Assembly (NCBI GenBank): GCA_036244855.1
Contig: BQKZ01000020.1
Coordinates: 129,915-193,914 of the forward strand
Reading direction: 5' to 3'
DNA from: Temnopleurus reevesii
Taxonomy: Eukaryota > Echinodermata > Echinoidea > Temnopleuroida > Temnopleuridae
DNA: 64,000 bases
A model generated the notes under the pieces. That model was not told the origin of the DNA and ran no database searches. It saw only the letters and a list, made by a program, of their open reading frames with translations. The translations under genes and the position numbers were made by a program. Below are positions 2,584-63,122 of this stretch, piece by piece. How positions within the stretch are numbered: the stretch's first letter is position 1; the number at the start of each line of letters is the position of its first letter.

Positions 2584-4742
2584 AGGGATTATGAATGTAA
2601 TATAGTTATTATTATTAATCTCTGGTGCCAAGCAAAGTGAAATGGATAAATCATATTTTCCCCTTTTACCTGTGAACTAAATTTAAGTTTAAATGGTTTG
2701 GAATCATTTGAAATATGCATTAATCAACAGCTAGGCCAAAAGATTGCTCACTTATTTGTGGGGCATGGTATGAAATATGTGTGCATTGCAATCCTAAAAA
2801 AAAACTCTCCCCTCTATCTAACAATTGACCCACATCAGCAAACCTTGATCACAATAATTCAGCAGTTGTGATGAATTCATGTATGAATTAAGTTGCTACT
2901 TCTGAGTGACCTTTTGATTGGAGAGTCAACATTTTTAGTAGATACGTTCCTAGATTCTATCAAAACACAGCATACCTGTCATTATGGTAAAATATTCACA
3001 GAATTGGGCAACACAATATTGACATCAGATTCACAATTGAATTATGTCCCGAATTGAATATAGCCAGAAGTTTTTGTTTGGAGTGACCATAGATATACTA
3101 CAATTTGTTTGTGTGGAGTGACTCACTCTCTCAAGTAGAGGAAATACTATGTAGTACGTGATGGGTTAAAGCATACCATTCTCTTCCTCAGTTCATCAGT
3201 GCTTTTGGTTAATTTGTGTTTGAATAGAGGAGGATATTTGATGTGTTTGAAATGCGAGCACAGCCTCCTTTATTTGAGGTATCACTTGATGAGTAAGTAA
3301 CAGACTGCTGCTAAGAGTTCAAATTAGGGACACCCCTTGTAATGATGAAGAAAAAGAGTGAGTAGCTCATAGAAAGGAATGAGTCGAGGATGAACATCTC
3401 ACATTACAAGCAGCAGGATACAGACTTGCTCTATTTTCAGGTTTCCGAAATGGGGTAGGATTAGAAAAAAAAAAGGAAAATAGGGAAAAGGGAAGAGAAA
3501 TTGTGAGATGGAGAGATAGAAGTAGAGAGTGAGATGGTAACACATCCCCCCTGGCCGTGTTCTTTGAGAGATAAACACGCTAGTTACGGAGTGCAGCAGC
3601 TCACTCTGTTGAAGTGATTATAGTGAGACGCAGCTTGCCATCCAACCTCATCTGGCTGCACGCAGCTCTCTAAAGATTTTTTTTTCTTGTTTGCAAATGG
3701 AGAAAATTCCAAGTTTGTATGTTAATGTGAAGCCATATAAGTGGGATTTGATAGAGAAAAAGCTGTTGTTATGTGGACTGGATGGGCTTAGTTGGTGGAC
3801 GTGGATGCGACGTAGCAACGCATGTGTGGGATAGAGGAAACGAGTGGGATGCTGCCTCCATTATTCCTTTGGATGTATCTTAGGAAGGTTTTTTACACCG
3901 GCCTTAATTATTTGTTACAGAGGTCACTCTCGCAAAAACAGCGGAACACCGTCAAAAGAAGCGCAGTCGAGAGTGAGAGAACAGAGCCTCTCAGATTTCA
4001 CCAAACTCTGGTGGTTGGATGGAGAGATATTAACTCTTGTGTTTGCATGTAGTTTAACTTGTCAATGAGCTTTCAGTGCCTTTATTCTCCAGTGCTCCTC
4101 AGAAATTTTCCAAGCTACATCTTGGTATGGGGATGTGGTTCTCCTCCCTTCTCCCTAGATGACACTGTTGCTTAGCGATTGAGATGCTAATGCTCGTGCT
4201 GTGCTAGTACCATCATAGCTCTCGGTAGGAATGGCAAGTGATTTGGCATTTGACCTCACTTTTTACGAGAGGCGACGTGAACACAGGTCACCATCGTTAC
4301 CTGTGATACGCAGTGACTTGAAGGTGGAAGCATGTCTTATGCGAAAGTACTCCAGGGGTGTAAGTACCACTCTTAATCATCCCATTGTGTGGGGATTCGG
4401 GTAAACAATGTGTCATGCCCCTCTTCCCATTTACCCATGTCTCTGATTTGAGTATATAAGGTGGATGTTCAATTATTGGATTCCTTTATCTTCTGTTAAT
4501 TGTAATTTTAAAATACACTTTTTTTCTTTTTATATAATTTTATATTTTTTTGTATGCCCTTGGTGTCTATTAATAATATGGTTTGTTGGAAAGATACTTA
4601 AGAATGGAACATCTAAGAGTTGTTTTTTTTTCAAACTAACATTTATCTCTGAATAAAAATGTATTTTTAAAAGGAGATAAACTTCAGGGCTAAGCATGCC
4701 TCCTGTATGGGACATAATATAATTTTCACAATGTAATGCCCT

Positions 4743-13914: not shown

Positions 13915-13956
13915 TCGCTGGAGAGCACCCGGCGTATGCTGCAACTCGCAGAAGAG
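13915..13956 (+). CDS. SNAP25: SNAP-25 exon 3 (Qb SNARE helix, N-terminal part)
   Basis: This 42-nt phase 0-0 exon encodes SLESTRRMLQLAEE. It differs from my recollection of human SNAP-25 residues 25-38 only at one position (Ala for Val). It follows a strong pyrimidine tract ending in TTCCAG and is followed by GTAATA. SNAP-25 is a plasma-membrane Q-SNARE that supplies two helices to the syntaxin/synaptobrevin bundle driving regulated exocytosis; this exon gives early turns of the first (Qb) helix. The preceding exon with the start codon is outside the window or unrecognised, so the gene is partial at its 5' end. Recognition rests on sequence identity plus the conserved exon length and phase. 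Confidence 0.95.
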
Positions 13957-18593: not shown

Positions 18594-18642
18594 AGTCAAG
18601 ATATGGGCATCAAGACATTAGTAATGCTGGATGAGCAAGGAG
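18594..18642 (+). CDS. SNAP25: SNAP-25 exon 4a (alternative, zero-layer exon)
   Basis: This 49-nt exon, phase 0 in and phase 1 out, encodes SQDMGIKTLVMLDEQG plus the first base of the next codon. The acceptor is CACCTTAG and the donor GTAAGA. It corresponds to human residues 39-54 and contains the Gln (human Q53) that forms the ionic zero layer of the SNARE bundle. A second exon of identical length and phase lies at 20977-21025. Joining both shifts the frame and reaches TGA at 21015-21017. Omitting both also shifts the frame and meets TGA within exon 5. The two must therefore be mutually exclusive to make protein. 4a and 4b share 12 of 16 residues but differ at 13 of 49 nucleotides, mostly silently, which suggests old copies kept by selection. 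Confidence 0.93.
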
Positions 18643-20976: not shown

Positions 20977-21025
20977 AGCAAGGAAGCGGGTATCAAGACT
21001 TTGGTGCTCCTGGATGAACAAGGAG
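20977..21025 (+). CDS. SNAP25: SNAP-25 exon 4b (alternative, zero-layer exon)
   Basis: This 49-nt exon, phase 0 in and phase 1 out, encodes SKEAGIKTLVLLDEQG. The acceptor is TGGCTTAG and the donor GTGATA. It has the same length, phase and position in the protein as exon 4a, differing at four residues (Gln/Lys, Asp/Glu, Met/Ala, Met/Leu). It also encodes the zero-layer Gln. Its start (Ser-Lys-x-Ala-Gly-Ile) is closer to human SNAP-25 than that of 4a. The donor is less canonical than that of 4a, so inclusion may depend on enhancers. The following intron begins almost at once with a minisatellite carrying five UGCAUG motifs. Confidence 0.92.
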
Positions 21026-25766: not shown

Positions 25767-25884
25767 AACAACTGGATCGTATTGAGGAGGGTATGGACCA
25801 GATCAACACAGACATGAGAGAGGCCGAGAAGAATCTCACTGGTCTTGAGAAATGCTGTGGAATCTGCGTCTGCCCGTGGAAGAA
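25767..25884 (+). CDS. SNAP25: SNAP-25 exon 5 (end of Qb helix and palmitoylated Cys cluster)
   Basis: This 118-nt exon, phase 1 in and phase 2 out, has the same length as vertebrate exon 5. Completed by the G of exon 4 it encodes [17 protein letters not shown], then [20 protein letters not shown], then Trp-Lys. The acceptor is CATTACAG and the donor GTAAGT. It finishes the first SNARE helix and supplies the cysteine cluster that family members palmitoylate to anchor in the plasma membrane. The four cysteines align to human positions 84, 85, 88 and 90, and position 92 (Cys in human) is Trp. Vertebrates have two alternative copies of this exon. Only one is visible here, but a 520-base gap begins 259 nt downstream. 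Confidence 0.96.
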
Positions 25885-26143: not shown

Positions 26144-26663
26144 NNNNNNNNNNNNNNNNNNNNNNNNNNNNNNNNNNNNNNNNNNNNNNNNNNNNNNNNN
26201 NNNNNNNNNNNNNNNNNNNNNNNNNNNNNNNNNNNNNNNNNNNNNNNNNNNNNNNNNNNNNNNNNNNNNNNNNNNNNNNNNNNNNNNNNNNNNNNNNNNN
26301 NNNNNNNNNNNNNNNNNNNNNNNNNNNNNNNNNNNNNNNNNNNNNNNNNNNNNNNNNNNNNNNNNNNNNNNNNNNNNNNNNNNNNNNNNNNNNNNNNNNN
26401 NNNNNNNNNNNNNNNNNNNNNNNNNNNNNNNNNNNNNNNNNNNNNNNNNNNNNNNNNNNNNNNNNNNNNNNNNNNNNNNNNNNNNNNNNNNNNNNNNNNN
26501 NNNNNNNNNNNNNNNNNNNNNNNNNNNNNNNNNNNNNNNNNNNNNNNNNNNNNNNNNNNNNNNNNNNNNNNNNNNNNNNNNNNNNNNNNNNNNNNNNNNN
26601 NNNNNNNNNNNNNNNNNNNNNNNNNNNNNNNNNNNNNNNNNNNNNNNNNNNNNNNNNNNNNNN
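26144..26663. other. Assembly gap, 520 Ns
   Basis: Unknown sequence within intron 5, starting 259 nt after the exon 5 donor. Apparent open frames across it are meaningless. Confidence 0.99.
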
Positions 26664-32244: not shown

Positions 32245-32382
32245 ATTAGGTAACTTTGAGAAGGGAGGTGACTATAAGAAGACATGGAAGGGGAACGATG
32301 ACGGTAAGGTGAATTCTCATCAGCCAATGAGAGTGGAGGATGATCGCGATGGCACTGCTGGCAACAACAGCATGATTACAAG
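32245..32382 (+). CDS. SNAP25: SNAP-25 exon 6 (linker between SNARE helices)
   Basis: This 138-nt exon, phase 2 in and phase 2 out, completes a Lys from exon 5 and encodes 45 residues beginning LGNFEKGGDYKKTW and ending TAGNNSMIT. The acceptor is CTTTGCAG. The donor AG|GTTCGT is unusually weak. It is the hydrophilic, Asp/Lys/Asn-rich linker between the palmitoylated cluster and the second SNARE helix. The YKKxW motif near its start and the QPxRV motif in the middle match vertebrate SNAP-25; the rest is diverged, as usual for this linker. Confidence 0.93.
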
Positions 32383-33784: not shown

Positions 33785-33929
33785 AATAACGAATGATGCC
33801 CGTGAGGATGAAATGGACGAGAACCTGACTCAGGTGAGCGGCATCGTGGGTAATCTGCGTCACATGGCCATCGACATGCAGAGCGAGATCGGAGCCCAGA
33901 ATCAACAGGTGGAGCGTATCTCTAGCAAG
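33785..33929 (+). CDS. SNAP25: SNAP-25 exon 7 (Qc SNARE helix)
   Basis: This 145-nt exon, phase 2 in and phase 0 out, encodes [14 protein letters not shown], then [17 protein letters not shown], then [17 protein letters not shown]. The acceptor is CTTTCAG and the donor GTAAGC. It carries most of the second (Qc) SNARE helix. The zero-layer Gln (human Q174) lies in AQNQQ. Identity to vertebrate SNAP-25 is very high. Because it ends in phase 0, it can be joined in frame to any of three terminal exons further downstream. Confidence 0.97.
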
Positions 33930-35596: not shown

Positions 35597-36687
35597 GGAT
35601 TTATTCAAGCGTTTGCATGCCGTACTTTGCCATTTGACACATCGATTGACTCACTGTTCATAAGCTGCACATAAAATTAACTTTGTGCGCAATATTGCGA
35701 TATGCTTTTTACAGAATTATATTATTCTCAAGCTTATCAATGCATATTATCGTTTAGAGTCCCAAAACATCTTATGTTTAATGTAAGAAGTTGCTTAAAC
35801 TTGATGCAGAGTAAGGAAGTTAATAGATCAAGGGAGAGTGTGATGAAAAAATAACTTATATCAATATAAGATTGACCTCACTTTATTCAGTTATTCAGAT
35901 AAGTCATGCTTTATTCTGAGCAGACACGTGTTATGCATAGAATTGACACGAATATGCCTTAAGTAATGTTTCTATTTTGGGATAACGCAAAGAAACACAA
36001 TACGCAAGAGAAATAAATGGATAAATATGAACAATTTCTATATATATGCTTGATGGATTTTGTGTGATCCCACACAATGACCTAGTTGCATTGATGAAAT
36101 CTCCTTGAAATATCATCTCTATCTCCCCGAAGGATTACACTAGTTTAATGCTTTCCCTCTCCCATGGCAAGCTCCTTCAAGGAAATGGGATGCCGAATGG
36201 AGAACTAGAGTTGTGCGGGATTTTAAATATTTACACCCACACTGCATGCATGTGCCTTTTACATTTCATCGGGTAATTTCAGAAATGACATCACATCTAT
36301 TTCTCATTCATTATGTCATATTTTGGGGAATTCGCATTGCTTGCTTTTTAAGTCATAACCATTCATTTTCATATTTTGACATTCCTTAGGTTTGATTTTT
36401 AACAATTTTTGCATCTTGGAATTAAAGCTTTGATTGATCACTGTCATTTTAATTACACTTTTTATCATTCATTGATTTTTCTTTCCTTACATTTTAAAAT
36501 TCATTCATTCTCTTTTCTTTCCATTTGTTTTTTTGTATTTCTCCCACACCCTTCGCCACACACACACACACTCACGCTCATGCGATTCACGGTTTGCTTG
36601 TTTTGTGTTGTTCGTTGTTGTCCATACCCCTTCTTGAATCCATCCTCATTGTTTTGCTGTAATATTCTGATTATTGTCAAACCACAG

Positions 36688-36750
36688 GGTGATTCTAACG
36701 TGGAACGCTTGGCTGTAGCCAACAGCCGTGCTAGCAAGCTCCTCAAATAA
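36688..36750 (+). CDS. SNAP25: SNAP-25 terminal exon 8a (alternative C-terminus)
   Basis: This phase-0 terminal exon encodes 20 residues starting GDSNVERLAVANSRA and ending SKLLK, then TAA. The acceptor is ACCACAG with a poor pyrimidine tract. It corresponds to the last turns of the Qc helix (human residues 185-206). Core positions N188, A195 and A199 are kept, and Leu/Leu stand at 192 and 202. It is two residues shorter than human and than the other two terminal exons. Lacking a donor, it must end a transcript. Possible AATAAA signals lie at 37045 and 38006. A weak acceptor in the first of three competing terminal exons would permit readthrough to 8b and 8c. Confidence 0.9.
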   Translation, partial: GDSNVERLAVANSRASKLLK

Positions 36751-39700
36751 AGCTCTACATGGATTACTATGTGTGGGAACATCATTCACACAACACCTAA
36801 ATGATGAGATAGAAGATTACCATCACTCATAGCAACTGTTAATTTCTTATGATTTAACATGACTTATCCATTAATGTAATGCCAGAATTGAGAACAAAAT
36901 TAGACATCAGATTTCATCATAACTTGTTGGAGATTGATGAGCTCTTTAGCTACTGTTAAGTAATCTTAATTTCATTGCCCCAAATCAAAAGAAAATCTAA
37001 CAATTACAATCTTATGAAATTTTCGATAAATTTACCTAGATGTAAATAAAAAAATATCAATGTAAGATGGAGCATACCATTAAACTGGAGTCCTCCTGAC
37101 AGAGGACATGGACAGAATACATCACAGCAATTTACTGAAGAAATTTTCCAACATGAAAGAAAACCCCTATAATTATTTCAATCCTATTCGCCTTCTGAAA
37201 AATATACATAAGAGTGCATGTCATACTGTAAAACCTGTTATACCAACTTGAACTATTACATCCTAACCTTTGCATACACCTCTGCATGCAAAAAGCAGCA
37301 TAAGTATTACTGCAATATCCTTATCTGCTTCTATGATTTTCTTTATTCCTAGAGTTTTATGCTTTTTGTAACCTAATCGTAATCATGGAAAAAAAAATGT
37401 GTCACTCTTGATAAATTATTGATCTCTATGCAATCCTTAATTTGGCAATGTGTAATGGATAATTCAGCTGAAGTGATGGTGATATTAAAATTATTTTGTT
37501 CCTCATTTGTTCTTCTCATGGTCACCAGAACTGAATATAAGATTATTATAAATTTGTAGTTTGATTGAAATTGGTCACATATTTATAAAGTAATTGTAAA
37601 GAAATGTAATTTAGCTCCCAAATTTAAATTGTTTTGTATCGTTTTTCAAAGAGGTCAAAAGACGTTTGTATGATTCTAATATTTATCCAAGCATTGAATA
37701 TTATTGTATGGAGTAAAAATTTATAAATATGTCAGAGTACTGAGTTTTCTTTAAAATATTTGTACCCTTTAACTGTTAAAGGTTATTTTTAGAGCATAGT
37801 AAACTTCTGTAAATTTTAATGATACTCTTTTTCATAAATTGACAATTGATCCCATATTTTTGGTCTCTTTTAATTGGCTGGTATAGGCATATAATTGTTT
37901 AAAAACGAAGTAACATTGTACTCAAATTGCCAAATCAAACTTAGATTCATTTCCCTATTGTTATCATTTCACCTCATGTCCTAACAACAAACTTTTGATG
38001 TTTCAAATAAAGCAAACATATTTTCCCAGGCTCGTAAAATATTGTACTGTCCTAGTGAGTTCATCATTTAACCAGTTTTCCTGTGTTACAATATTTTCTT
38101 ATTGGCTCATACAATATAATTGGTTATCAGTGTGCCCCCACTTCCAGATATATCTTTCTATATACCACCTCATATCTCCTTATACAATCATTTATGATAT
38201 CTTGAAAATATATTCTTCCTTGTTCATCCTGTATTGGCTAACTTAAAACTTTGACACCCCTACCCTTGGTTTACTCAATCATGTAATTTCCTATGTGTCT
38301 GTCCACATTCAACCTTTAATAACCAGATTGTGTTTATGTTGCAAGTTATATCACTACACTCATTCATTATTCATACCAATTTAGAGCAACCCAACTTTCA
38401 CCATACCCTTCCTTCGACTTGCCAGATCAAATTTCCCACCTCTCTGTCATAGCCCCTAGCCCCAGTGACATACTCAATCACAACATTACTGTATCTTCTC
38501 CCAAAATATACTCTTTCACTATACTCGGCAACTCCTGTGCATCTCGCTTGTTCGCTATCTTTATAGTTATACCCCTCAATGTCCTTTCAGTATTTTTTGT
38601 TTATTTTTGGAATATTGATGCATCTATTTTGAGGAAATTCAATAATTTTGGCCTAAATCTTGTTCAAATTTCATACCCAGTGGAGATATATGAGGAGAGT
38701 TAGCTACCTGATTTACACCCACATATTGAACCCTATGATGTAGTGGGAGTAGGGATTCATGAAGAATGCATACACAAGGTCATAAGGGTTTTATTTATCT
38801 CTTTTATATATAAAATCTGTTTAATCTGGACAGAAAAGGGATATTTCATAGAGAAATTTGAAAGAAAAAGCAAATGCAGGCATGCAATCTATTGAAATTA
38901 AGATGTTATTGAAAAATAAGATGTTTAGAGAAATTATTTTAAATCTAAACAAGCATATCTGGAAGGATCATTTTACCTAGGTTGTTTTTTTTTTCTTCCT
39001 TATGGCTCTATATTCACTAAAAAAAGAAACAATTTAAATGCATGAAGAAACCATCCATCAACGAAAATATATGTTTATCCGTCCATTTGTCTGAATGCCA
39101 ATTCAAATGTAATGAACTTTGATAATTCTGAAGTTTGTTATTTCCGTTAGAACCAAATGTCAGTAGACATCAATTACTTCACACCCTCTGTATAAGGTAT
39201 ACAATATAACAGAGACTGAAGAGGAAAAATTTATGAAAAAGCAGACAAAAACCGCAGAGGCCATTGGCCTTTCTAGGCAAAACCTCAACAAAGTAAATTG
39301 ATATCGGCCACATTGAAAGATCAGATTCCTGTTTTTTTCCAAATACCAACAGAAGTGCATCAATAGATATAAAATGTTTTGTTGATAGGTGTATCACACG
39401 GATGGCTTCATGATTTACAGTAAAAGTGAATGCAATAAATGCAATTAGAAAATGATTGGCTTGTTTATAATAATCTCGCTCCTGCATTCTTTCAATATTG
39501 AACAAAAAGTGTTGTTGTATTTCTGTAATATCTTTTAATTTGGACTCACAGTCACAGTACACTGTGTGGACATTAGATGCATTATGTTAATCAGGAAAAA
39601 CAAATCCTTGTGCCCCGAAATAGAGGAGAAAGGAAAGATAAATGAGATTATGCATAAAGCTCTTGTAGAACGTGTGGCTGTGTTCGGTCATGCTAGCCTC

Positions 39701-41147
39701 TCTTCACATGTATCAAAGGCTTCCACCTGTCAGATGTCCACTGTAGGGTTTATCATCATCGTTGTCGCTATAAAGACTGCCCTCTATCTTCCATGCACTG
39801 TCCATTTATCCCTAGTGCACCATCACCATCAGCACCACCATCTCATATCTTATATTTACATCCTTGTAACCCTGGAATAGACTGTGCCGATGGTGTCATC
39901 ACCAGAGTTGCAGAATGTCCTTAGTTCCTATTAAAGTATTTCTAGTGATGTCATTTGAGCGCCATGTTGGAAGGCAAACACCACCTTTTTTTCACACTTT
40001 TACTATCCACAGTATTCATAGTCTGATGCAAGGGCCTGTTTGTGTTTTGTCCTCCAAAATGGCCGAGTCTGGCGTCACTCGAAATGCTTCTTTTGTGTTA
40101 CTTAAATATCATCCATCTGGCCCTGACCAGACAAAGCATGAACACATGACGTCACCCTATCCTCTAGTGAGCTTGAAACCTTGTACTCTGTACCTCCATC
40201 TATTGACATTCAAGGCATAAAGAATGCACATGCATGTACTAGCCGCCATCAAATCTTTATTGGCTACTCCTCAGATGTCAAGATATGAAGCATTTATCGG
40301 CCTATTTGTCTCATCCAGGCGGTCCCTCGCTACTATTTGTCTGATCTAAATGTTCATTTCATCACGCTACTTCTCCCCCTGGAATTTTTTATTGTCCTGT
40401 GTGAATGTGAACAAGAATTGTTTTGAACTTGAGAACACGTATACATGCAGTGTGCTTCATTTACTCACTCTAGATCTGTTGCCTGTAGTCTACTTTCTCT
40501 CTCTCTCGCATACCATTTATCCAGTTCATTTTTTTTGCTCTTTCAACTTTTATATTGCTAGTTTGCATGTTATTGCTCATGCTATCTTAATGCATGCTAA
40601 GGTCGCATTACCGAGCCTGCACTATAGGGTTGAGATAATGAATACTTCAATGCAATGTTGCTCAATATTTTCCCATTACAATTTAAGAACCAAAGCGGCA
40701 ATATTCAATGTTCTGTTTGTTCATGACTATGAAACTAACCATTATTCTTACTTTCAAGAGATCAGTGCGCAGTGTCTGTGTTTTAAATTGTTTCCTATCG
40801 ATTATAAAAATGTCCATGTATGTTTGCCTAATTAATATGTAACATGCAATATTTAATCACTTGTTAACCCCCACTTGTTGCTGAATTACATGTTATGCCT
40901 TTATATCGACTACGGTGTGTCGTCCCACCAAATAATGTCCTGTTCTGTCTTTTTCCCTCTTCTTTCCTTACCTCATTCTTTCCCCTCATACCCTACCCCT
41001 TCTCCTCACATATATAACCCTATCCTCACCTTTCTCCATCACACAATCCATGATGGCTGCTCACAACCCCACCCTCACCTCCATGCCTCTGACATTTGAC
41101 CTCTGACCTTCGACCTGTCATGTGACTTCTTTCCCAACCGTCTGCAG
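36751..41147 (+). other. 3' UTR of 8a and intron before 8b
   Basis: The first part is AT-rich and probably 3' UTR, with AATAAA at 37045-37050 and 38006-38011. No exon is recognised in the rest. At 40226-40600 there are several TGCATG motifs. From about 40949 to 41040 the + strand is strongly pyrimidine-rich, 100-200 nt before exon 8b. A CRE-like TGACGTCA lies near 40147. Confidence 0.65.
37045..37050 (+). terminator. Candidate poly(A) signal for the 8a transcript
   Basis: AATAAA, 295 nt past the 8a stop codon. A second AATAAA is at 38006. Confidence 0.4.
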
Positions 41148-41216
41148 GCACGCCTAAATGACACCCGTATTGATATGGCCAACAAGCGAGCTACCACAAT
41201 TCTCCACAAGAATTGA
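41148..41216 (+). CDS. SNAP25: SNAP-25 terminal exon 8b (alternative C-terminus)
   Basis: This phase-0 terminal exon encodes 22 residues, starting ARLNDTRIDMANKRAT and ending TILHKN, then TGA. The acceptor is CGTCTGCAG behind a good pyrimidine tract. Aligned to human 185-206 it keeps N188, TRID at 190-193, AN at 195-196, RAT at 198-200 and a hydrophobic residue at 202. Of the three terminal exons it is the most vertebrate-like in the middle, but it ends in a basic HKN instead of Gly-Ser-Gly. AATAAA occurs at 41754. Confidence 0.93.
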   Translation, partial: ARLNDTRIDMANKRATTILHKN

Positions 41217-41753
41217 AATGTTCCCGAAAGCTTTATTCCATGACACGGTCAATCATTCTTGTTTCCCCAGTATTGATTCATGTCGATCGTTCATAATCAT
41301 GATTCATTTTTTTTCATGGGGTTATAAAAAACAATTGATCATAAAAAACCAACCTAATAAGTAAATTGGATACATGGAAATATAATGACAGAAGAGGTTT
41401 CGGACCACAGGCTGACTCGGCATCTGTATTCATTTTATTGCTGTTTTTGTAAATTTTATTGTCAAAATGTGCAATAACTAATATGCTTTATGGGGATGTG
41501 TGTAATAGGGTTGACGACCAAAACGCTTTTTTTATTTCATAATCTCATGATCAATAGCAACATTAATTGATTTCTTGTCAACTGATGATATCTTAATTCA
41601 AGTGAAAATTAATTTAGAATACATAAGATTGAGGGTTATCGAAAAATGATAAGTAGGGATGCTAGAAGTTATTTTTAGGAAGATTTGAATTTGAATTTTT
41701 ATTTGTTTTTGTATCTTTTTTTTTTTAAATTTCTTCATTTATTAAGTATAGTA

Positions 41754-41759
41754 AATAAA
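41754..41759 (+). terminator. Candidate poly(A) signal for the 8b transcript
   Basis: AATAAA about 540 nt past the 8b stop codon. Confidence 0.4.
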
Positions 41760-44700
41760 ATGATTAAGAGAAAAGATTTCGTTTGTTAGAGTGTAAAGTA
41801 ATCGCATATCTGTATCATGAATATGTTGCTTGTACAACTAATATACAAATAAGGTTGTTTCTAACTAAATATAGCAATTTAGAATAGGTTTTGTCTTTCA
41901 AATATTAGCATCTTATTTGACGTATGAACCATGTAATCGTGAAATTTAATTTATGGCTCATGTAGTTTGCTTAGGATTAAAGTGAACAAATGCTTCAATT
42001 CTTTGCCTAAGTGTCACATATATTTCAGAGTTATTTCTTTGTAAATGTGTATAGATATATTCACTGTCTCCTATTTAATCATATATATGCATATAATATC
42101 TCCAATCTATATAATGCGTGTTTGCTTTATAGTGCAAAAAGACGAGATATATATATGATAAACATTTATGTGCAATATGTTAGTAGTGATTTCCAAAGTG
42201 CTTGAATTTATAGTTTGTCTATAGGAATTGTTTTATTTGAACTATTAGAAATAATTTCCAGTTATTTTCAACCACAAAATAATCTGAGATGATAACAAAT
42301 TTAGATTCGTTCTGGAATGTGAACAATCTGATGAGAATCATAACTTTGAAATTATTCATCAAAGTCAAATTCTAGCGATGTGTTTATTAATTTATTCATA
42401 TATATTTTTTTTCATTATCAACTAAATGTTAAGCTTAATATACTGAATATAGATGTAGTTAAGATGATAGTGATATTACCCTATAAACAGAATTTTGATA
42501 GCTTTTGTGTGATTTCTGGTGTTTGTAAATAAGATCAGCATTTTGGATTCTGACACAATTTTTTTCTTCAGATTTCTACCTGATATTCTTTAACATTAAG
42601 TATTCAAAGAACACCAATTCCTTGTTGGAATATGACAAAAAGATTCAAGGATTTGTGACACACCAGAACTTTTAACATTCTATCGCGACTTTAGCTATCT
42701 TGCTGCTCCTCATTAGATTGTATTAGAGAATGTACATATCAATGTACCCTCTTTTGTGGTATTTTTCATGCCAAAATTTTGGTTTTGATTATGAATGCTA
42801 TGTGACAACATAATTTTGTACATAGATTGAATCTTTTTCACAAAAGCTGTAAAGTGCAACGATTTGGACATTCTTTTTTTTATTTGATTTGCAATTCAAT
42901 GTTCATCATATGTTGAATTATGTACAAGTATTATTGTAGTGCATAATAATGGTTTGAGTTCTAGAGATGTTAGTGTATTTTGACCATATTCCTTCCTTAT
43001 TTACCCTGTAGTGATTTCAGCAAAATATTTGTAATCTGAAATTCATGTGTAGAGTATTTAAGGCAAAGGGAAAGTAAATTAAAATTAAAATAAGTTTATC
43101 ATACTAAACATTTGATGTTTCCTGTCTACGTTTATATTACAATATAAACTTAATTGCAAAGACCTTTTTTATCAAAAGATTTGTAAGAAACATTATATTT
43201 GCAATTTTCTTGTGTATTGTATGCATTCCATCTTGACTTTTCAATGTACTTGATTTTCCTTTGAAAGCCTTTGCAATTAGGTTTATACTGTCTATTATCG
43301 AAAAAAAAAGACCTGTTTTGTAAAATCTTTAGAAATGTAAAATTTTTTATTTTTATTGAAGGAGATGACAGTATTTTGATCGATAGCTTAGACTTTTTTA
43401 TTTGAGTTTTTGAGTAGGTGTTTTATTAATATGAAGTAGTCATTTTAGACTTTGGGAATGGAGTGAGAATCAGATGACATTTAATCGAGATTAGAGTTCC
43501 AAGGAAACCATGATCATTATCAAGAAGAGGGTAGTGTTAAACTGATTTGCCAGTCTACCCCTATGGTTTGGTTATTTAAATAATACCACAGGATAGTCAA
43601 CTTTACGGTTAACATTTCATTAGCCATGAGATCTTCCATCTTTCAAAAAAAAATTAAAGAGAGGAGGTATATTTATTAATATGTTTCATTGAAAAACAAT
43701 CTGCACCAAACATCTCTCACATAATCCATAACTAATAATAGACTGTTCAATAACTACTTCTATTACCTCTTCAATCAATATCAATTCAAGATCAATTCTA
43801 TCGGAATCAATTCTGTCCAGAAAGAATCATCATGTGACGTTTAGAACAATGTATTGTTTTCATAGAGCTGTTCATGGGGCTCTCTTTGTATTATCCCAGT
43901 GTGGTCAAACAGTTCTTTCGGCATCACCTAATTCAGGCCTAAAATGCTAAATCCCAGAAAAATGGGCTGAAAAGGTCAGTGTTTCTATTTGCCATAAATA
44001 GAAGCAAAAGACATGTTAGACTAAATTTTCCAAAGGAAGCAGATTGAATAAGAGCAAGATATGGAGGAATGGAGTTTGAAGATATGTTTTTGAAGTATTG
44101 AGAATAGAAGTAACCCTTAGAGAGAGAGAGAGAGAAATGTTTTAGTCCTCTTCACTGCTGGCAGAGGGATATGTATTCACACTTAGCGGACTCTTCAACT
44201 AGATGGATAAGTGGAAACAACTTCTACAATTATAAATGTTCAATGTGGTAGAATAGTTGCTAAAAGATTATTTCATTTATGATAGTAATGGATGTGTATG
44301 TACGTCTATCTTATACTTTTCTATATACTACTGAGCCTTTGATATATTATTTTTCTTGTTATTCGTAATCAAATTTTATATCAGAAAAATGAATTACATT
44401 TTATCCAGCTTTTTGATGATTTGAAGTGCACCTCACTCTGTAGAATTTATCTGTCTCTGATGGAAAAATCTACCAAAGTACTATTCAAAGTGAATATGTT
44501 GAGGAGGAAAACCATTTTAGGGTTGTTGCTGATACAGTTTGTTTCAATCTTTCAACATTATTCCTTCTTGCCTCACATTCCCGAGCATGCCAAGTTGTCA
44601 GCTCATTGTTCGTATGTCAATGCTTTGCATGCTGTCATTGTAATTCGAAAGAGCACGAGCTCAAAATAAGATAAAATTGTCATGTATATTGTCATAATTA

Positions 44701-45040
44701 TAGCAGCTAGAATCGATGTCTTGTTTATGGTTGTTTTGTCAGACACATTTCTTTTGTCAAGTATTTTTATATTACACTGTACTTTGCAAGAAAGTGCATG
44801 CATGATCTATATCAGAAAGTCACATTATGAAATGAAAAAAAATATCAAGATTGCCTATGAATCCTATTCATTTACACCAGAGCAGTCCACTTTGACCATA
44901 TCCATGGCAACCATTCCATTCTGTGTGCTTTGTGGTTCATGAGTTCTTACCAAATTATCTATTGAAATAAGTCAAGTTTCAAAGCAAAGCGTAAAAAAGA
45001 CCATGCCACCAAAAGAGAAGCAACAAATCAATCCCGGGAG

Positions 45041-45203
45041 GTGTTTCACCAAGATAAGAAAGACTTTACGCACGACTTTACGTTCGACTGGTATCCCTTC
45101 TTGCGCTGGATGCGCGTAATATTATGAATGATTACGGGCAAGAAGGGATACCAGTCGAACTTAAAGTCGTGCGCGTAAAGTCTTTCTTATCTTGGTGAAA
45201 CAC
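45041..45203. mobile_element. Foldback element with about 65-bp inverted arms
   Basis: Arms 45041-45104 and 45138-45203 are inverted complements apart from one mismatch and a two-base insertion, with a 33-bp loop. The ends read GTGTTTCACCAAGATAAG and its complement. No coding content is present. Such an arm-to-arm match would form a strong hairpin in the primary transcript between exons 8b and 8c. Confidence 0.85.
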
Positions 45204-45870
45204 TTCCCCGCTTTGATCACACAACCACATCTGATTTACAAAATTGGCTTGTCACAGAATTTGTCAAGCTCAATTCAGAAATACTCCCTTTCATAGTTTG
45301 TGAATTCATACAGTCTATTTATTGTGAAGTGATGACTTACCTCTATACTATTTCAAGAATTTTCAATATTGTGTATCCCCTGAAAGAAACCAGATGATTA
45401 GAATCAATGTTTTGGGGGTAAAACCTTCCTACTGTAACACTATCTTCTTTGATTTGTTTCTTTGCGTTATATGTTGTATGTTCTATAGATGACTTGTATT
45501 TTAGAATGGATCTAGTTTTAGCATTTGTGTTTTTTAAATTTCTTATAAGCATGTCAAAGATTAATTCTTCATAATTCCAAATTTATGGATAGAGAAACTG
45601 ACACTAGCTAGATTGAGATATGGACTTGCTAGCCTTTTTGGTAAAATTGCTGCAAAAACAGAAGGGAGTCCTCTCTCCGGATTATTACTGTTAAAAATAT
45701 CGATGACAAAGGGATTGGGGAAATTTGTCTTAAAACTTACATGAAATAGAGAATATGTTGATGCAACTTTTACCTGTTTATTTTCCTATGGCAAAATTTA
45801 TCTCTACTATAAAGTGGCAAGGTATTTTGTTTTACACATGTATGATCAGATACAACTTGCCCAGTCTTCT

Positions 45871-45900
45871 ACCCCCCCCCAAAAAAAAAAAAAAAAAAAA
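45871..45900. repeat. C-run followed by A-run
   Basis: About ten C then about twenty A, the same composition as the 4.75 kb tract. Confidence 0.9.
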
Positions 45901-46377
45901 TATTATAATAATTGTTCATGGTGTTTTGAAATATTTACATCCCCTTACTTCAGTAACTTTTTCTCAGAGGCTCATATTTCACCAATGTTGAGACATTTCT
46001 TTGATATCCTCCCCCACAGTCAATTTGAGTGCTTTGTGTTGTACTATTTTCTATGTATTGTCATTCTTTATGTTCAGACTTTTTTGCAATTTCATATCAT
46101 ATATTTTTTTGTCCAAGTTTCATTTATAAGTAAGGATAATAACTACATGCAATCATTAATGCCATTCAAATAACATTTAATTTTGATACGTTTTCATCAT
46201 CCTTTTATGAACATACTTTTTATATCGTCCTGTACACAAGCCTTTCAAAATTTATTTTCCATTTTTTGAGTATGAAATTGCACGCCTTACATGATTGTTG
46301 ATTGGCAAGTGTTATGATATTCATGAATATTAATTAGCCTGTTCTTCTATTTCTTTTCCCTCTCATCTTCCATCCAG

Positions 46378-46446
46378 GCGGAATCCAATGAACAGAGGAT
46401 AACCAGCGCTGACAAGAGAGCCAAAAATATCCTCAGAAAGCAGTAG
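46378..46446 (+). CDS. SNAP25: SNAP-25 terminal exon 8c (alternative C-terminus)
   Basis: This phase-0 terminal exon encodes 22 residues, starting AESNEQRITSADKRA and ending KNILRKQ, then TAG. The acceptor is CATCCAG behind a long pyrimidine tract. Core positions are kept relative to human 185-206 (SN at 187-188, I at 192, A at 195, RA at 198-199, I at 202), while exposed positions differ from 8a and 8b. The end is basic (Arg-Lys-Gln). AATAAA lies at 46600, 150 nt downstream. It is the last recognised SNAP-25 exon. Confidence 0.93.
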   Translation, partial: AESNEQRITSADKRAKNILRKQ

Positions 46447-54764: not shown

Positions 54765-56721
54765 AAGGAAACTACACTCAAATGATAAATCGGCTTATTA
54801 AAAAAAAAGTTAAATGTGTATCTAATGATTCAAATATGCGATTTACTATAAAAGTATAAGATTTAGAGTTAAATCACCATTATCTGAGCCAAGTTATCGT
54901 CTGCTAACATTAGCTGGGGGATGCAATTTTCTTTTTGGTACAAGAAAGTATTTTTGTTCCTAAATCAAAGCTTTCTTGATCGGTAATAACATAATTCAAT
55001 ATTTTAGAAAAAATATGATACGTATGTGGACATATATATTTTATTATTTAACACTGATCCATTAGTCTTTAAAAGAGTCATTTTGCGCATTGAAACTCTT
55101 TTTTCTTGACATACATGACGTACAACATGGACTAATTAACGTATGACATGGACTACGACATGAAGCTTCTTCATTACAAAGCTAATGAAAGAAAGGAATC
55201 TGTAGGCTAGTATCGGTTGGCTATTTCAACCATTATATGTGACTTTCTATAGCGTTATACAATCAGATGAAGACCAGAACAAAAAAGAAGAATCTGTAGT
55301 ACAGATTAGATTCGTGTTTATATAAGGTCTTTGGCAAAACACTACGTTTTCACCTGTATTCAAACAATAGAATACAATATTTTATTTTATTTTTTATTTT
55401 ATTTATTTATTCACCATTCATAGGTTGGATTGCCCTATTCAGCCTACAGGCTGGTTTTCAAAGGGGTCCATACCATATAAAAATACATAAAAATACATAA
55501 AAAACAACATTTTACATACATAAAAATGATTTACAAGTGTAGATAAAGGAATACAAAATATGACAAATTATGGATATAAAGAAAATATGTAAACCTAAAG
55601 AGCGAACAAGAGATGGGGGGGGGGGGGGGGGGTGTGAGAATGCTAAAAAAATATTCTCCAAAAATCAGGGTATGTGTTGGGTTATTTATTGAAATCAGCC
55701 AGAATTTGTGTCATACCAGGGTTATTATTTAAATTGCGTTTGAACGTTTCGATAGATGAATTTGTTGAGATAGGATAATCCAAAATATTCCAAAGTTTGG
55801 CGCCACGATAAGTAAGAGATCTTTTTCCATAATCTGTTTTTGGTTGGAAAAGGATTAATTTATTTGAAGATGATCTTGTAGAATATACATATAAAATATT
55901 ACTGAGGTAAGAGGGGCAAAGCTTGTGAATTGCACGATACATTGTACGTGCTACAAATTTTGACCATCGGACATTAAGTCGATCTAATTTCAGGTCTGTA
56001 TACAAAAGTCTTGTTGAAAACATATAATCTACATTCAAAACAATGCGAAGGGATTTGTTTTGTTGTATTTGCAATTGATTTAGATTGGATTTTGAACAAT
56101 TTGACCAGACGGAGCAACAATAATCGAAGTTACTTTGTATAACTGATTTATAAAACAATAAAGCTGTACGCTGATCAATGTATGGACGTAATCTTCTTAG
56201 AAGATATACACTTTTACTAACTTTTTTCTTTACACGATCAATTTGATCATTCCAAGTAAGACTTTTGTCAATTGTAACTCGGAACAAAATACATGGAAGG
56301 CTTGCTGAATAAAGGAAATTCTGTTATGCCAGGCAAGCCCACTAGTAAAAGCAAATTTCTTTAGTATAAACAGATGGTTTGAAAACTTAATTGTGTATTA
56401 TAAGTTTTACTAAAATATTGGACAGCTATCATGCATTTTTCCAACATAACATATTTTATTCGCCAAAGATTGAACTATTTTAACGTTTCATGAATATTTC
56501 CCTTGCCATTGAGGATGATCTATCAATGGATCACGTCGCAATATCTGTTCTGAACAAAATGACAGCCCCCTTGTAATATGATAGCAAACGAACACCTGTT
56601 CTAAAATTTCGGGAAATTTACGCTTTTCTGAATACATTGCAGATTTTGATCCAGTTCAATTAGAAGAGATATATGACACCTTTCTTATAGGTGTATATTA
56701 TCATATAAGTTTAGTTTCCCT
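54765..56721. mobile_element. TTAA-flanked DNA transposon carrying a nested LINE
   Basis: It is flanked by TTAA at 54761-54764 and 56722-56725. Left end AAGGAAACTACACTCAAATG and inverted right end AGGGAAACTAAACTTATATG match at 16 of 20 positions, and both continue ATAA. Removing it restores the foldback hairpin, with one TTAA kept. Without the LINE it is about 1 kb and has no transposase, so it is non-autonomous. Confidence 0.75.
55377..56290 (-). mobile_element. 5'-truncated non-LTR retrotransposon (LINE) fragment
   Basis: On the minus strand an open frame of about 200 codons (56287 down to 55682) reads through DKSLTWNDQI, LLRRLRPYID, DYCCSVWSNCSKS, LQIQQNKSLRI and SLTYRGAKLWNIL, ending in a stop. 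These are the conserved strings after the catalytic domain in CR1/Jockey-type reverse transcriptases. The catalytic part is absent, so the copy is truncated at its 5' end, as is usual for LINEs. Downstream is a 3' UTR with a G-run (+ strand about 55615-55633) and an A-rich tail at 55377-55410. The frame is intact, suggesting a young insertion. Confidence 0.88.
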
Positions 56722-58828: not shown

Positions 58829-59709
58829 TGTACATTAGAGTGTACCCAGAACGTTATTGGAAAACAAAGGTGGAAACTCATCTGACGATTGTCATTGTTA
58901 ATTTTCTTATTTGATGGTAAACAAAAATAAGGAGAAGCGGAAAAGGATAATATCAACCTCTTTATACATAAAAATTCTTCATCCTTCCCTTCCTCAAATA
59001 TGGCATACTGCCATCTATTGTTGTTGTGGACCTGGGACAGTTTTATTCCTTCATGCTTTGTGCGAGTGACGAGTCAGGTTTTTATTATTTTTTCTTTGGC
59101 TCGTCACGGGAAAAGAACATGTTCAACCTCCACAAAGAAAATAGATTTAGAAGAAAACCTGTATGTTGAATGGATCTATACTTTGACTTTGTTAGTTTGG
59201 ATGTTGGTTAGGCGCCTGATGAAATTTTCCTGGGAAATGCTAGTTTTAGGGATTTATATGAATAAAAAGTGTAACCCAGAAACTCCCCAAACTGTGTTAA
59301 CTCTTATAAGTTGGACAAAAGTACTAAGTGGCGTGATATCCTTTTTGCCATAATTGGGTAAAATCTACTAGAAATCATTACATTAATGACTAAATAATTT
59401 GCCAAAAGTTTACAAGACTAGGCAAAATATTGCCTTAATAAACAGCCGTTTCGCGGAACGCATCAAAGCTCTCCGTAAAGTTATATAGATTAATCATGAT
59501 TATAGATTGGAACATACATATAGACTCATAAAAGTTAGATAGTTCTTTATTCGCCAAAGATTTAGAATTATGGAAACATTTTATGAACAAAATTGTGAAT
59601 ATAACGAAAACAGTGAAAATCCCACACACACAAAAAAAACCCCGCAAATAAACACTCAATTGATCTGAAAGTAGCATCATAAAATGTTGTCTCAGTTCAC
59701 ATTTTGCAG

Positions 59710-60024
59710 CTCTTCCACCACCAGAGGTAATGGACCCGGATGACTCACGGTCCACCCGTAAACGTACCCTCTCCGGTAACAGTGTCTACAACTATCGGTC
59801 CAAGTATGGCGGGCCTGCACCGTCATCGTTCTATGGCGATCCATCAGAGAAGTATGGCGCGCCATCGTCGCGGTACGGGTATGCGCCGGGCGCCAAGGGT
59901 GGTGAGAGTTTGGACGATTTCGATGTTGGGAAGATGGGACCTTTCTCTATTTCTGGGAGTGTACCCCCTCCTCCTTACAGCGAACACTCCTTTGCTGTCG
60001 GGCCAGCGGTACTCTATAAGCCAG
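59710..60024 (+). CDS. Membrane protein tail exon, copy 1 (PPPPY)
   Basis: Phase 1 in and phase 1 out, acceptor TTTTGCAG. It encodes LPPPEVMDPDDSRSTRKR, a Tyr/Gly/Pro/Ser-rich stretch including YRSKYGG, SEKYGAPSSRYGY and ESLDDFDVG, then SGSVPPPPYSEHS and LYKP. PPPPY (about residues 202-206) fits the PY class bound by WW domains such as those of NEDD4-type ligases. Two donors in the same phase are available, GTAGAG at 60025 and GTCAGT at 60031, differing by two codons. A nearly identical copy lies at 62248. An adjoining TAG/TAA microsatellite lies in the intron and is not coding. Confidence 0.8.
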
Positions 60025-60101
60025 GTAGAGGTCAGTATTTGTTTCCTTTTTTGAAAAGTGTAATCTTGAAAGAGGCAAATGATCCTCTTGATAGCAATAG
60101 T

Positions 60102-60231
60102 AGTAGTAGTAGTAGTAGTAATAGTAATAATAATGATAAAAATTATAATATTGTTAATAATAATACTACTACTACTAATAATAATAATGATAATAATACT
60201 ACTAGAACTACTACTACTAATAATAATCAAC
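60102..60231. repeat. TAG/TAA microsatellite, copy 1
   Basis: Trinucleotide repeats in the intron after the tail exon. The same array, apparently identical, is at 62643-62772. Confidence 0.9.
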
Positions 60232-60581
60232 ACAGCATTTGAATGCAACATCTAGCTAGACTATTTCAAGGTGCAGAGTGATAAAAAAGTAAGCAGCAGA
60301 AATAATTCATTAGCACTTAATTTTTGTTTGCTAACATAAATAGTTAAGATTTTTTTTACTCCAATTATTAAATAGAATATTTCAAATAATAATAACGTTA
60401 ATACTACATAATCAAGATAAACAATCAAAGCGCTTTGAGTTAAATATGATGTCGGCAAATTGTTTTATTGATTACTGCATTAAATTGATCGATTAATTCA
60501 TTTCTTTTGAACAGAGTGTACACAAATAAACATAATTCATATAATGTAATTTGTTACGTTATACCTCGGACTCATTTGCAG

Positions 60582-61723: not shown

Positions 61724-62247
61724 AAGAGTGGGCAGGTCTTTTTCAGGACCACTCACATTCTAAGAAAGAGCTCGTTGTACCGTAAAGCCTTTCATTATAT
61801 AGCATGCATTTTATGTTCAGTTTATATCCTATAAAAGGACAAATGTGACTCTCAAAAGGTTGATTTTTTTCCAATTTTTATGTGTCCATTATGAAGAAAA
61901 GTGTGAACCGTGCTGATTTTCACTCCTGCAAGCTAAGTATTTATAAACATTACTTGCAAAATGTTATAGTTTTGGAGACCGAAAATACATATCTTGCATG
62001 AACATAGGCGCAGGACGTAAAGTGACAATTTCGCCAACATAGATCACATAATAATAATAATTATATGTCTAGCCATTTTACAATTTGTCACGAATAAAAG
62101 AGAGAATTGTGTCTTAAATTTCTATCATGGTTATACATCTATAAACTAACAAACAAACAAACAAAACAAACACAGAGAAACACTAATTTATTCTGATGTC
62201 TTTAGAGTAGCCTCATAAAAATGTTGTCTCAATCTCATCTTCTGCAG

Positions 62248-62565
62248 CTCTTCCACCACCAGAAGTAACGGACCCGGATGACTCGCGATCCACCGTCCGT
62301 AAACGTCCTCTATCCGGTAATAGTGTCTACAACTATCGGTCCAAGTATGGCGGGCCGCCACCGTCATCATTCTATGGCGATCCATCAGAGAAGTATGGCG
62401 CGCCATCGTCGCGGTACGGGTATGCGCCGGGCGCCAAGGGTGGTGAGAGTTTGGACGATTTCGATGTTGGGAAGATGGGACCTTTCTCTATTTCTGGGAG
62501 TGTACCCCCTCCTCCTTACAGCGAACACTCCTTTGCTGTCGGGCCAGCGGTACTCTATAAGCCAG
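62248..62565 (+). CDS. Membrane protein tail exon, copy 2 (PPPPY)
   Basis: Phase 1-1, acceptor TCTGCAG. It is one codon longer than copy 1 (STVRKRP instead of STRKRT) and has other changes in the first 125 nt (EVTDPDD for EVMDPDD, GGPPPSS for GGPAPSS). After about 62371 it is identical to copy 1, including PPPPY and both candidate donors (62566 and 62572). With exons 1-3 and the last exon it gives a 351-residue protein. It may be the other haplotype of copy 1 or a true duplicate. Confidence 0.8.
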
Positions 62566-62642
62566 GTAGAGGTCAGTATTTGTTTCCTTTTTTGAAAAGT
62601 GTAATCTTGAAAGAGGCAAATGATCCTCTTGATAGCAATAGT

Positions 62643-62772
62643 AGTAGTAGTAGTAGTAGTAATAGTAATAATAATGATAAAAATTATAATATTGTTAATA
62701 ATAATACTACTACTACTAATAATAATAATGATAATAATACTACTAGAACTACTACTACTAATAATAATCAAC
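62643..62772. repeat. TAG/TAA microsatellite, copy 2
   Basis: It appears identical to the array at 60102-60231. Unchanged length between two microsatellite copies argues for very recent duplication or an assembly artefact. Confidence 0.9.
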
Positions 62773-63122
62773 ACAGCATTTGAATGCAACATCTAGCTAG
62801 ACTATTTCAAGGTGCAGAGTGATAAAAAAGTAAGCAGCAGAAATAATTCATTAGCACTTAATTTTTGTTTGCTAACATAAATAGTTAAGATTTTTTTTAC
62901 TCCAATTATTAAATAGAATATTTCAAATAATAATAACGTTAATACTACATAATCAAGATAAACAATCAAAGCGCTTTGAGTTAAATATGATGTCGGCAAA
63001 TTGTTTTATTGATTACTGCATTAAATTGATCGATTAATTCATTTCTTTTGAACAGAGTGTACACAAATAAACATAATTCATATAATGTAATTTGTTACGT
63101 TATACCTCGGACTCATTTGCAG

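Follow-up and report, generated by a model that had tools for sequence, protein, structure and literature searches.

Three predicted alternative last exons for the SNAP-25 C-terminus in the sea urchin Temnopleurus reevesii

The stretch of 64,000 nucleotides analyzed here (Temnopleurus reevesii, GenBank assembly GCA_036244855.1, contig BQKZ01000020.1, positions 129,915 to 193,914 of the forward strand), which is called the window in the following, contains on its plus strand a gene for SNAP-25, a protein that drives neurotransmitter release. The SNARE and linker exons of this gene were found by tblastn of the window, and their limits were set from splice sites. Downstream of exon 7 lie three exons, 8a, 8b and 8c, each of which could complete the protein. 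We consider it likely that these are three alternative last exons, produced by duplication of the terminal coding exon, and that their separate classes were already established when the living echinoderm classes radiated and have persisted ever since. A sequence-only reading of this DNA had proposed that alternative terminal exons provide SNAP-25 with three C-termini, and this proposal is supported, as a prediction, by the frame, the acceptors and the uniqueness of the exons, by same-species isoforms found elsewhere and by tail classes that extend throughout Ambulacraria.

That reading let exon 7 end in phase 0 and placed three phase-0 terminal exons at 36688, 41148 and 46378, each encoding the last 20-22 residues and a stop. 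Coordinates, frames and stops are all as claimed, with 20, 22 and 22 codons, respectively. The exons thus have one shared donor and three acceptors of compatible phase, as alternative last exons require. In a profile scan of all AG-preceded stop-free frames on both strands, 8a-8c scored 50-54 and the next site 10.2, and scores in 20 triplet-shuffled windows (one strand) did not exceed 12.0. As this first profile included the three exons themselves, the plus strand was rescanned with rat SNAP-25 alone as reference, which yielded scores of 52, 47 and 43 for the three exons. The next site reached 11, and the best of 20 shuffles 21. A chance origin of the three tail exons is ruled out by these scans and shuffles, and no fourth tail exon was found by scan in the window, runs of N excepted. 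The joined exons 3-4a-5-6-7-8a match the Pfam family SNAP-25 (PF00835) with 72.3 bits at a gathering score of 25, and exon 7 joined to 8b matches the SNAP-25 chain of the solved SNARE complex, 1sfc_D, with an E value of 1.4e-24.

Residue numbers are given according to the 206-residue rat SNAP-25, in which the terminal exon begins at residue 185 and covers layers +3 to +8. The residues at these layers are GNLAAL in 8a, ANIAAI in both 8b and 8c, and ANIAAM in rat. At positions 186, 187, 193 and 194, rat possesses D, S, D and E, while 8a has D, S, A and V, 8b has R, L, D and M, and 8c has E, S, T and S. The claim that the core positions of the Qc helix are kept and the exposed residues differ is thereby borne out. 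S187, a protein kinase C site, is present in 8a and 8c and is a leucine in 8b. Within the window, the tail pairs have 7, 7 and 10 of 20 residues in common, the value of 7 applying to 8a with either 8b or 8c, and the net charge of the tails is +2 (8a), +3 (8b) and +3 (8c), compared to +1 in rat. As layers +3 to +8 are kept in all three tails, assembly of the SNARE complex is expected for every isoform, and each tail should still zipper yet present a different surface. D186 and D193 are implicated in synaptotagmin-1 binding (PMC9623538), and layers +4 to +6, with I192 being layer +5, are described as crucial for C-terminal zippering and fusion (PMC4744192).

The relatives were collected from two protein searches, a first one with 120 of 2207 matches listed and one scored by the C-terminal 73 residues with 120 of 387 listed, together 205 different proteins, and a protein search with the C-terminal 40 residues returned one candidate. 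Best among the matches listed in the first search were Lytechinus pictus with 90% and Diadema setosum with 85% identity. As the listed proteins are representatives of 90%-identity clusters, isoforms of the same species are often hidden. Body and tail were compared in 20 species with at least two representatives each, hand-picked from the first listing, the body being exons 5-7 or longer. In 15 of these 20 species, a pair was found that has an identical body of 132-198 residues and tails that differ at 10-15 positions. Three of them are ambulacrarians (Acanthaster, Apostichopus and Ptychodera) and 12 are molluscs (Mytilus, Patella, Saccostrea, Pomacea, Mercenaria, Mya, Dreissena, Babylonia, Physella, Elysia, Littorina and Crassostrea), whereby the Saccostrea pair, encoded on contigs of unequal size, may represent two gene copies. 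One further protein, P0006, which is close in sequence to Apostichopus and has a c-type tail, is encoded with 195 residues on contigs of at most 1608 bases and likely derives from spliced RNA in view of the introns of the window gene. Since isoform pairs occur in 15 of the 20 species and tails group by class, the exons appear to be an old and maintained set and not a local oddity. Judged by the 12 two-tailed molluscs among the listed representatives, alternative tails are confined neither to this gene nor to the echinoderms, and at the level of predicted proteins the window gene belongs to an old series of alternative SNAP-25 C-termini that is widespread among animals compared here.

Tails were tallied for 158 of the 205 proteins, the other 47 being dropped because they could not be split or had a tail outside 19-23 residues. 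Among the 159 splittable tails of the 205 proteins, the closest to 8a is that of Patiria X5 (15/20), with the common motif NVxRL. As beetle-type tails come close to this (14/20), 8a may be the least changed copy, nearest to an ancestral form. Exon 8b has 18 residues in common with Lytechinus X2, 14 with Apostichopus X3, 13 with Saccoglossus, 12 with Ptychodera X4 and 9 with Ptychodera X12. For 8c, the closest tails are those of Diadema (18), Acanthaster X7 (17), Amphiura (16), Antedon (15) and Apostichopus X4 (15), followed by Glandiceps and P0006 (14 each), Anneissia (13) and an amphioxus (12). L187 occurs in all six tails labelled b and ADKR in all nine labelled c, the labels having been assigned by us; two starfish tails that were set apart as b-like carry S187. 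Classes b and c occur in echinoderms as well as hemichordates, and class a is represented by the sea urchin and a sea star. In Ptychodera flava, P0011 and P0014 have two different tails that both start with SRLN, which could reflect a doubled b-type exon in this acorn worm.

In a tree of 19 ambulacrarian tails, three label changes suffice, which is the lowest number possible, and none of 200 shuffles was as low. Support is 100/99 for class a (8a and Patiria), 79/97 for b and 82/74 for c, while the b-like tails of two starfish, Asterias and Acanthaster X4, find no supported place (22/0). Holding the three exons of the window together is rejected (p-AU 6.45e-06, 22 columns), and so is grouping by species for the Acanthaster pair (p-AU 0.000908) and the Apostichopus pair (p-AU 0.0311). 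As the labels were given by us from the sequences, the clustering by class is partly circular, which applies less to the tests of species grouping. A wider tree comprised 54 hand-picked tails, of which 50 came from the 205 proteins, three from the window and one from rat. There, the window tails or the Apostichopus tails were grouped by species in 0 of 100 bootstraps. Duplications that are older than the species, with b and c predating the echinoderm-hemichordate split, best fit these predicted tails. A deep tree that unites mollusc and ambulacrarian classes was given up: the first tree suggested two ancient types with support 0.908, and this split was recovered in 12 of 100 column bootstraps. 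The same applies to a group of c, amphioxus and the second mollusc tail (13/100) and to one of 8a-type and arthropod tails (15/100).

While the acceptors were checked, long zones without any AG were noticed upstream of 8a and 8b, which had not been predicted beforehand (Table 1; 4 of 3469 gaps hold N and were left out). On the plus strand, only two N-free gaps reach at least 258 nucleotides, and these end exactly at 8b and 8a. The longest AG gap in 30 first-order Markov simulations was 194 nucleotides, and when the letters of each zone were shuffled 20000 times, the result was AG-free in 0 cases for 8b and in 63 for 8a. As GA persists in the zones, nine and six times, and shuffles are rarely AG-free, AG seems to be specifically missing beyond what base composition would explain. 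The minus strand contains three gaps of at least 258 nucleotides (465, 271 and 267), which are rich in C and T, with 4-6% G and 1-2 GA, unlike the 8a and 8b zones with their 11-12% G. The other seven acceptors of the gene are preceded by AG-free zones of 36-127 nucleotides, that of 8c being 38. An AG exclusion zone of at least 150 nucleotides, the criterion for exons with distant branch points, was thus found for 8a (258) and 8b (373) and not for 8c. In human exons, large zones of this kind are taken as a sign of distant branch points, and alternative splicing is more frequent where they occur (PMC1431707). Far candidates of the form YNYTRAY are located at -281 for 8b and at -255, -236 and -213 for 8a, so that distant branch points are possible for both. 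Exon 3 of alpha-tropomyosin and exon 11 of PTB are known examples with large zones and distant branch points. The cases treated in the study of human exons are cassette or mutually exclusive exons (PMC1431707), whereas the exons here are terminal and their branch points are candidates only. The acceptor of 8c is rich in pyrimidines (14 of 16 positions), compared to 13 of 16 for 8b and 9 of 16 for 8a.

We propose that the donor of exon 7 would be joined to 8a, 8b or 8c and that the chosen terminal exon would end the mRNA and bring along its own 3' untranslated region (UTR), which would make the choice exclusive. The distal 8c, with its ordinary strong acceptor, would likely be the default, and the proximal 8a and 8b, behind their unusually long AG-free zones, would likely be regulated choices in certain cells. 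The exchange would affect exposed residues, namely the acidic pair D186/D193, the position of S187 and the residues past layer +8, and its function could be to adjust, depending on cell type or stage, the final part of zippering and the way in which this is coupled to calcium sensing. The sequence itself shows the exons, their frames, their uniqueness in the window and the AG-free zones, and records of other species show isoforms with different tails and the exon classes. The use of the exons in RNA of this species, polyadenylation at each of them, the exclusivity, the division into default and regulated choice, and the effect on fusion are inferred.

Several observations weigh against this reading. 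In other species, most of the isoforms come from gene prediction, with names such as X1 and X2, the window species contributes genomic sequence only, and a single tail was seen in 5 of the 20 species (Glandiceps, Saccoglossus, Biomphalaria, Liolophura and Haliotis). The trees use 22 columns, and the program flagged both this small number and the joining of long branches. An earlier 54-tail tree was known before the 19-tail tests, and in the 54-tail tree classes a, b and c are each recovered as one group in 58, 53 and 27, respectively, of 100 column bootstraps. With beetle-type tails, 8a has 14 of 20 residues in common, nearly as many as with Patiria, its one relative, so that class a has little to stand on. 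Near branch-point candidates exist at -18 for 8a and at -42 and -56 for 8b, and distant branch points are therefore not required. Poly(A) signals follow 8a, 8b and 8c at 1.4, 1.0 and 2.0 per kb, compared to 1.6 per kb in the window. No strict donor motif was found in the 4398, 5162 and 3554 nucleotides downstream of the stops of 8a, 8b and 8c, which is nearly uninformative because this motif occurs only four times on the entire plus strand.

An explanation that is compatible with alternative last exons holds that the tails are interchangeable and that the exons mainly attach different 3' UTRs, which would influence localisation, stability or timing. Indeed, the core layers of 8a-8c are near-identical, and alternative last exons inherently bring different 3' UTRs, but class-specific exposed residues (L187 and ADKR, by our own labels) are kept across the echinoderm-hemichordate split, and we regard this explanation as rather unlikely. 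A still lower probability is assigned to the view that 8a and 8b are stop-carrying cassettes, with an mRNA that runs on to 8c and undergoes nonsense-mediated decay, so that the level and not the form of the protein would be controlled. Poison-exon regulation is common for neuronal genes, and strict donor motifs are too rare here for their absence after 8a and 8b to exclude a donor. A full helix end with conserved core layers in all three exons would, however, be needless in a decay exon, and tails of these classes are found at the ends of proteins recorded for other species. Just as improbable appears the view that no more than two of the tails, or a single one, actually serve the gene and the rest are idle or decaying duplicates. 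In its favour, 8a has the poorest pyrimidine tract of the three and a nearest tail that is a single Patiria record, closely followed by the beetle type. Against this speak the intact frames and kept core layers of 8a-8c and the grouping of 8a with Patiria, including the NVxRL motif. As 8a joins Patiria and has so few residues in common with 8b or 8c, the copies are old and look constrained.

Vertebrate SNAP25 is not known to have more than one C-terminus, and the statement of the sequence-only reading that vertebrate SNAP25 exists in one version stands for this part of the protein. It does not stand for exon 5, which varies: the mutually exclusive exons 5a and 5b also represent a tandem-duplicated SNAP-25 exon, with isoforms that differ in exocytosis (PMC2581893). 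That exon is internal, encodes 39 residues, exists in two copies and is dated to early bony fish (PMC2581893), whereas the window gene has its terminal exon in triplicate, so that the Qc helix is altered at its end, and a single exon 5 was detected. The main text of the same paper does not mention invertebrate, sea urchin, exon 4 or exon 8 (PMC2581893).

The mollusc isoforms likewise combine an identical body with alternative tails of about 20-22 residues, according to automatic annotation, but show two tails per species among the listed representatives, compared to three in the window. Layers +4 and +5 of their second tail are occupied by L and V, respectively, in all 14 tails that we labelled so, their first tail formed one group in 0 of 100 bootstraps of the 54-tail tree, and no stable link of mollusc, arthropod or amphioxus tails to 8a-8c, as orthology would demand, emerged from the 54-tail bootstraps. 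The suggestion that the arrangement is undescribed can be upheld in part. No description of alternative SNAP-25 C-termini was found in searches of open-access literature on SNAP-25 splicing, which is weak evidence of novelty with most subscription papers lying outside, and the isoforms are already contained in automatic NCBI annotation.

A second choice seems to exist at exon 4. QD-type and KE-type isoforms with identical body were found in 9 of the 20 species, from hemichordates to molluscs. Among the 205 proteins, 70 gave no exon-4 match. Exons 4a and 4b are probably an old mutually exclusive pair, located just ahead of the zero layer of the first SNARE helix. In the window, all six combinations of the two exon-4 copies and the three tails are open from exon 3 on without an inner stop, and in Pomacea all four combinations of exon-4 type and tail were seen. 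With slightly less than even confidence, we suggest that the ancestral bilaterian SNAP-25 was combinatorial, with two exon-4 versions (QD and KE) and at least two C-termini, and that this was kept in molluscs, echinoderms and hemichordates, while vertebrates were reduced to one C-terminus and then invented the exon 5 switch. If this is true, invertebrate synapses would choose the energetics of last zippering by splicing. Fusion is driven by zippering of the C-terminal half of the SNARE bundle, functionally the most telling place of the protein. For this segment (layers +3 to +8), the window gene offers three natural versions that have long been retained on one protein and are probably exchanged by splicing. 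With these three tails, the exposed residues that set the speed of fusion and its coupling to calcium can be sought experimentally, and the view that exon variety of SNAP-25 began with exon 5 in bony fish would change.

Table 1. Features of the SNAP-25 gene in the window
Feature	Position	Strand	Remarks
Alternative first coding exon (MASDLAFDLTFYERRREHRSPSLPVIRSDLKVEACLMRKYSRG)	4231..4359	+	95% identity (tblastn) to N-terminus of Lytechinus pictus isoform X2 (P0001), E 8e-25
Exon 3 (SLESTRRMLQLAEE)	13915..13956	+	splice sites, frame
Exon 4a, alternative copy (SQDMGIKTLVMLDEQG)	18594..18642	+	49 nucleotides, phases equal to 4b
Exon 4b, alternative copy (SKEAGIKTLVLLDEQG)	20977..21025	+	49 nucleotides, phases equal to 4a
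Exon 5, cysteine cluster	25767..25884	+	tblastn, splice sites, frame
Exon 6, linker	32245..32382	+	splice sites, frame
Exon 7, Qc helix to layer +2, phase-0 end	33785..33929	+	...VERISSK, then GTAAGC donor
AG-free zone before 8a	36428..36685	+	258 nucleotides, second longest of 3465 N-free AG-to-AG gaps; 6 GA
Terminal exon 8a, coding part and stop (GDSNVERLAVANSRASKLLK)	36688..36750	+	CAG acceptor, phase 0, 20 codons
AG-free zone before 8b	40773..41145	+	373 nucleotides, longest of 3465 N-free AG-to-AG gaps; 9 GA
Terminal exon 8b, coding part and stop (ARLNDTRIDMANKRATTILHKN)	41148..41216	+	CAG acceptor, phase 0, 22 codons
Terminal exon 8c, coding part and stop (AESNEQRITSADKRAKNILRKQ)	46378..46446	+	CAG acceptor, phase 0, 22 codons

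No first coding exon of the usual MEDA.../MRNELEE... type was found in the window, and the alternative first coding exon is presumably joined to exon 3, as suggested by the Lytechinus relative. In related proteins, several mutually unrelated N-termini precede SLESTRRM. The motif CCGICVC in exon 5 is the cysteine cluster, a putative site of palmitoylation. A second exon 5 was not seen, as tblastn with the rat SNAP-25 query gave one match in the window; the run of N at 26144-26663 in intron 5 could hide one, and a further exon could lie inside it.

No tRNAs and no RNA families at gathering scores were found in the window. An open reading frame of 201 residues on the minus strand (55682-56287) resembles by eye the end of a non-LTR retrotransposon reverse transcriptase, with no Pfam match at E 0.001. 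A near-identical repeat is present at 59697-60251, where one coding-looking stretch (MDPDDSRS...KYGGPAPSSFYG) has no Pfam match, and at 62235-62792; the two copies are spaced by about 2.54 kb and agree at 98% over 300 bases and at 88% over the first 60.

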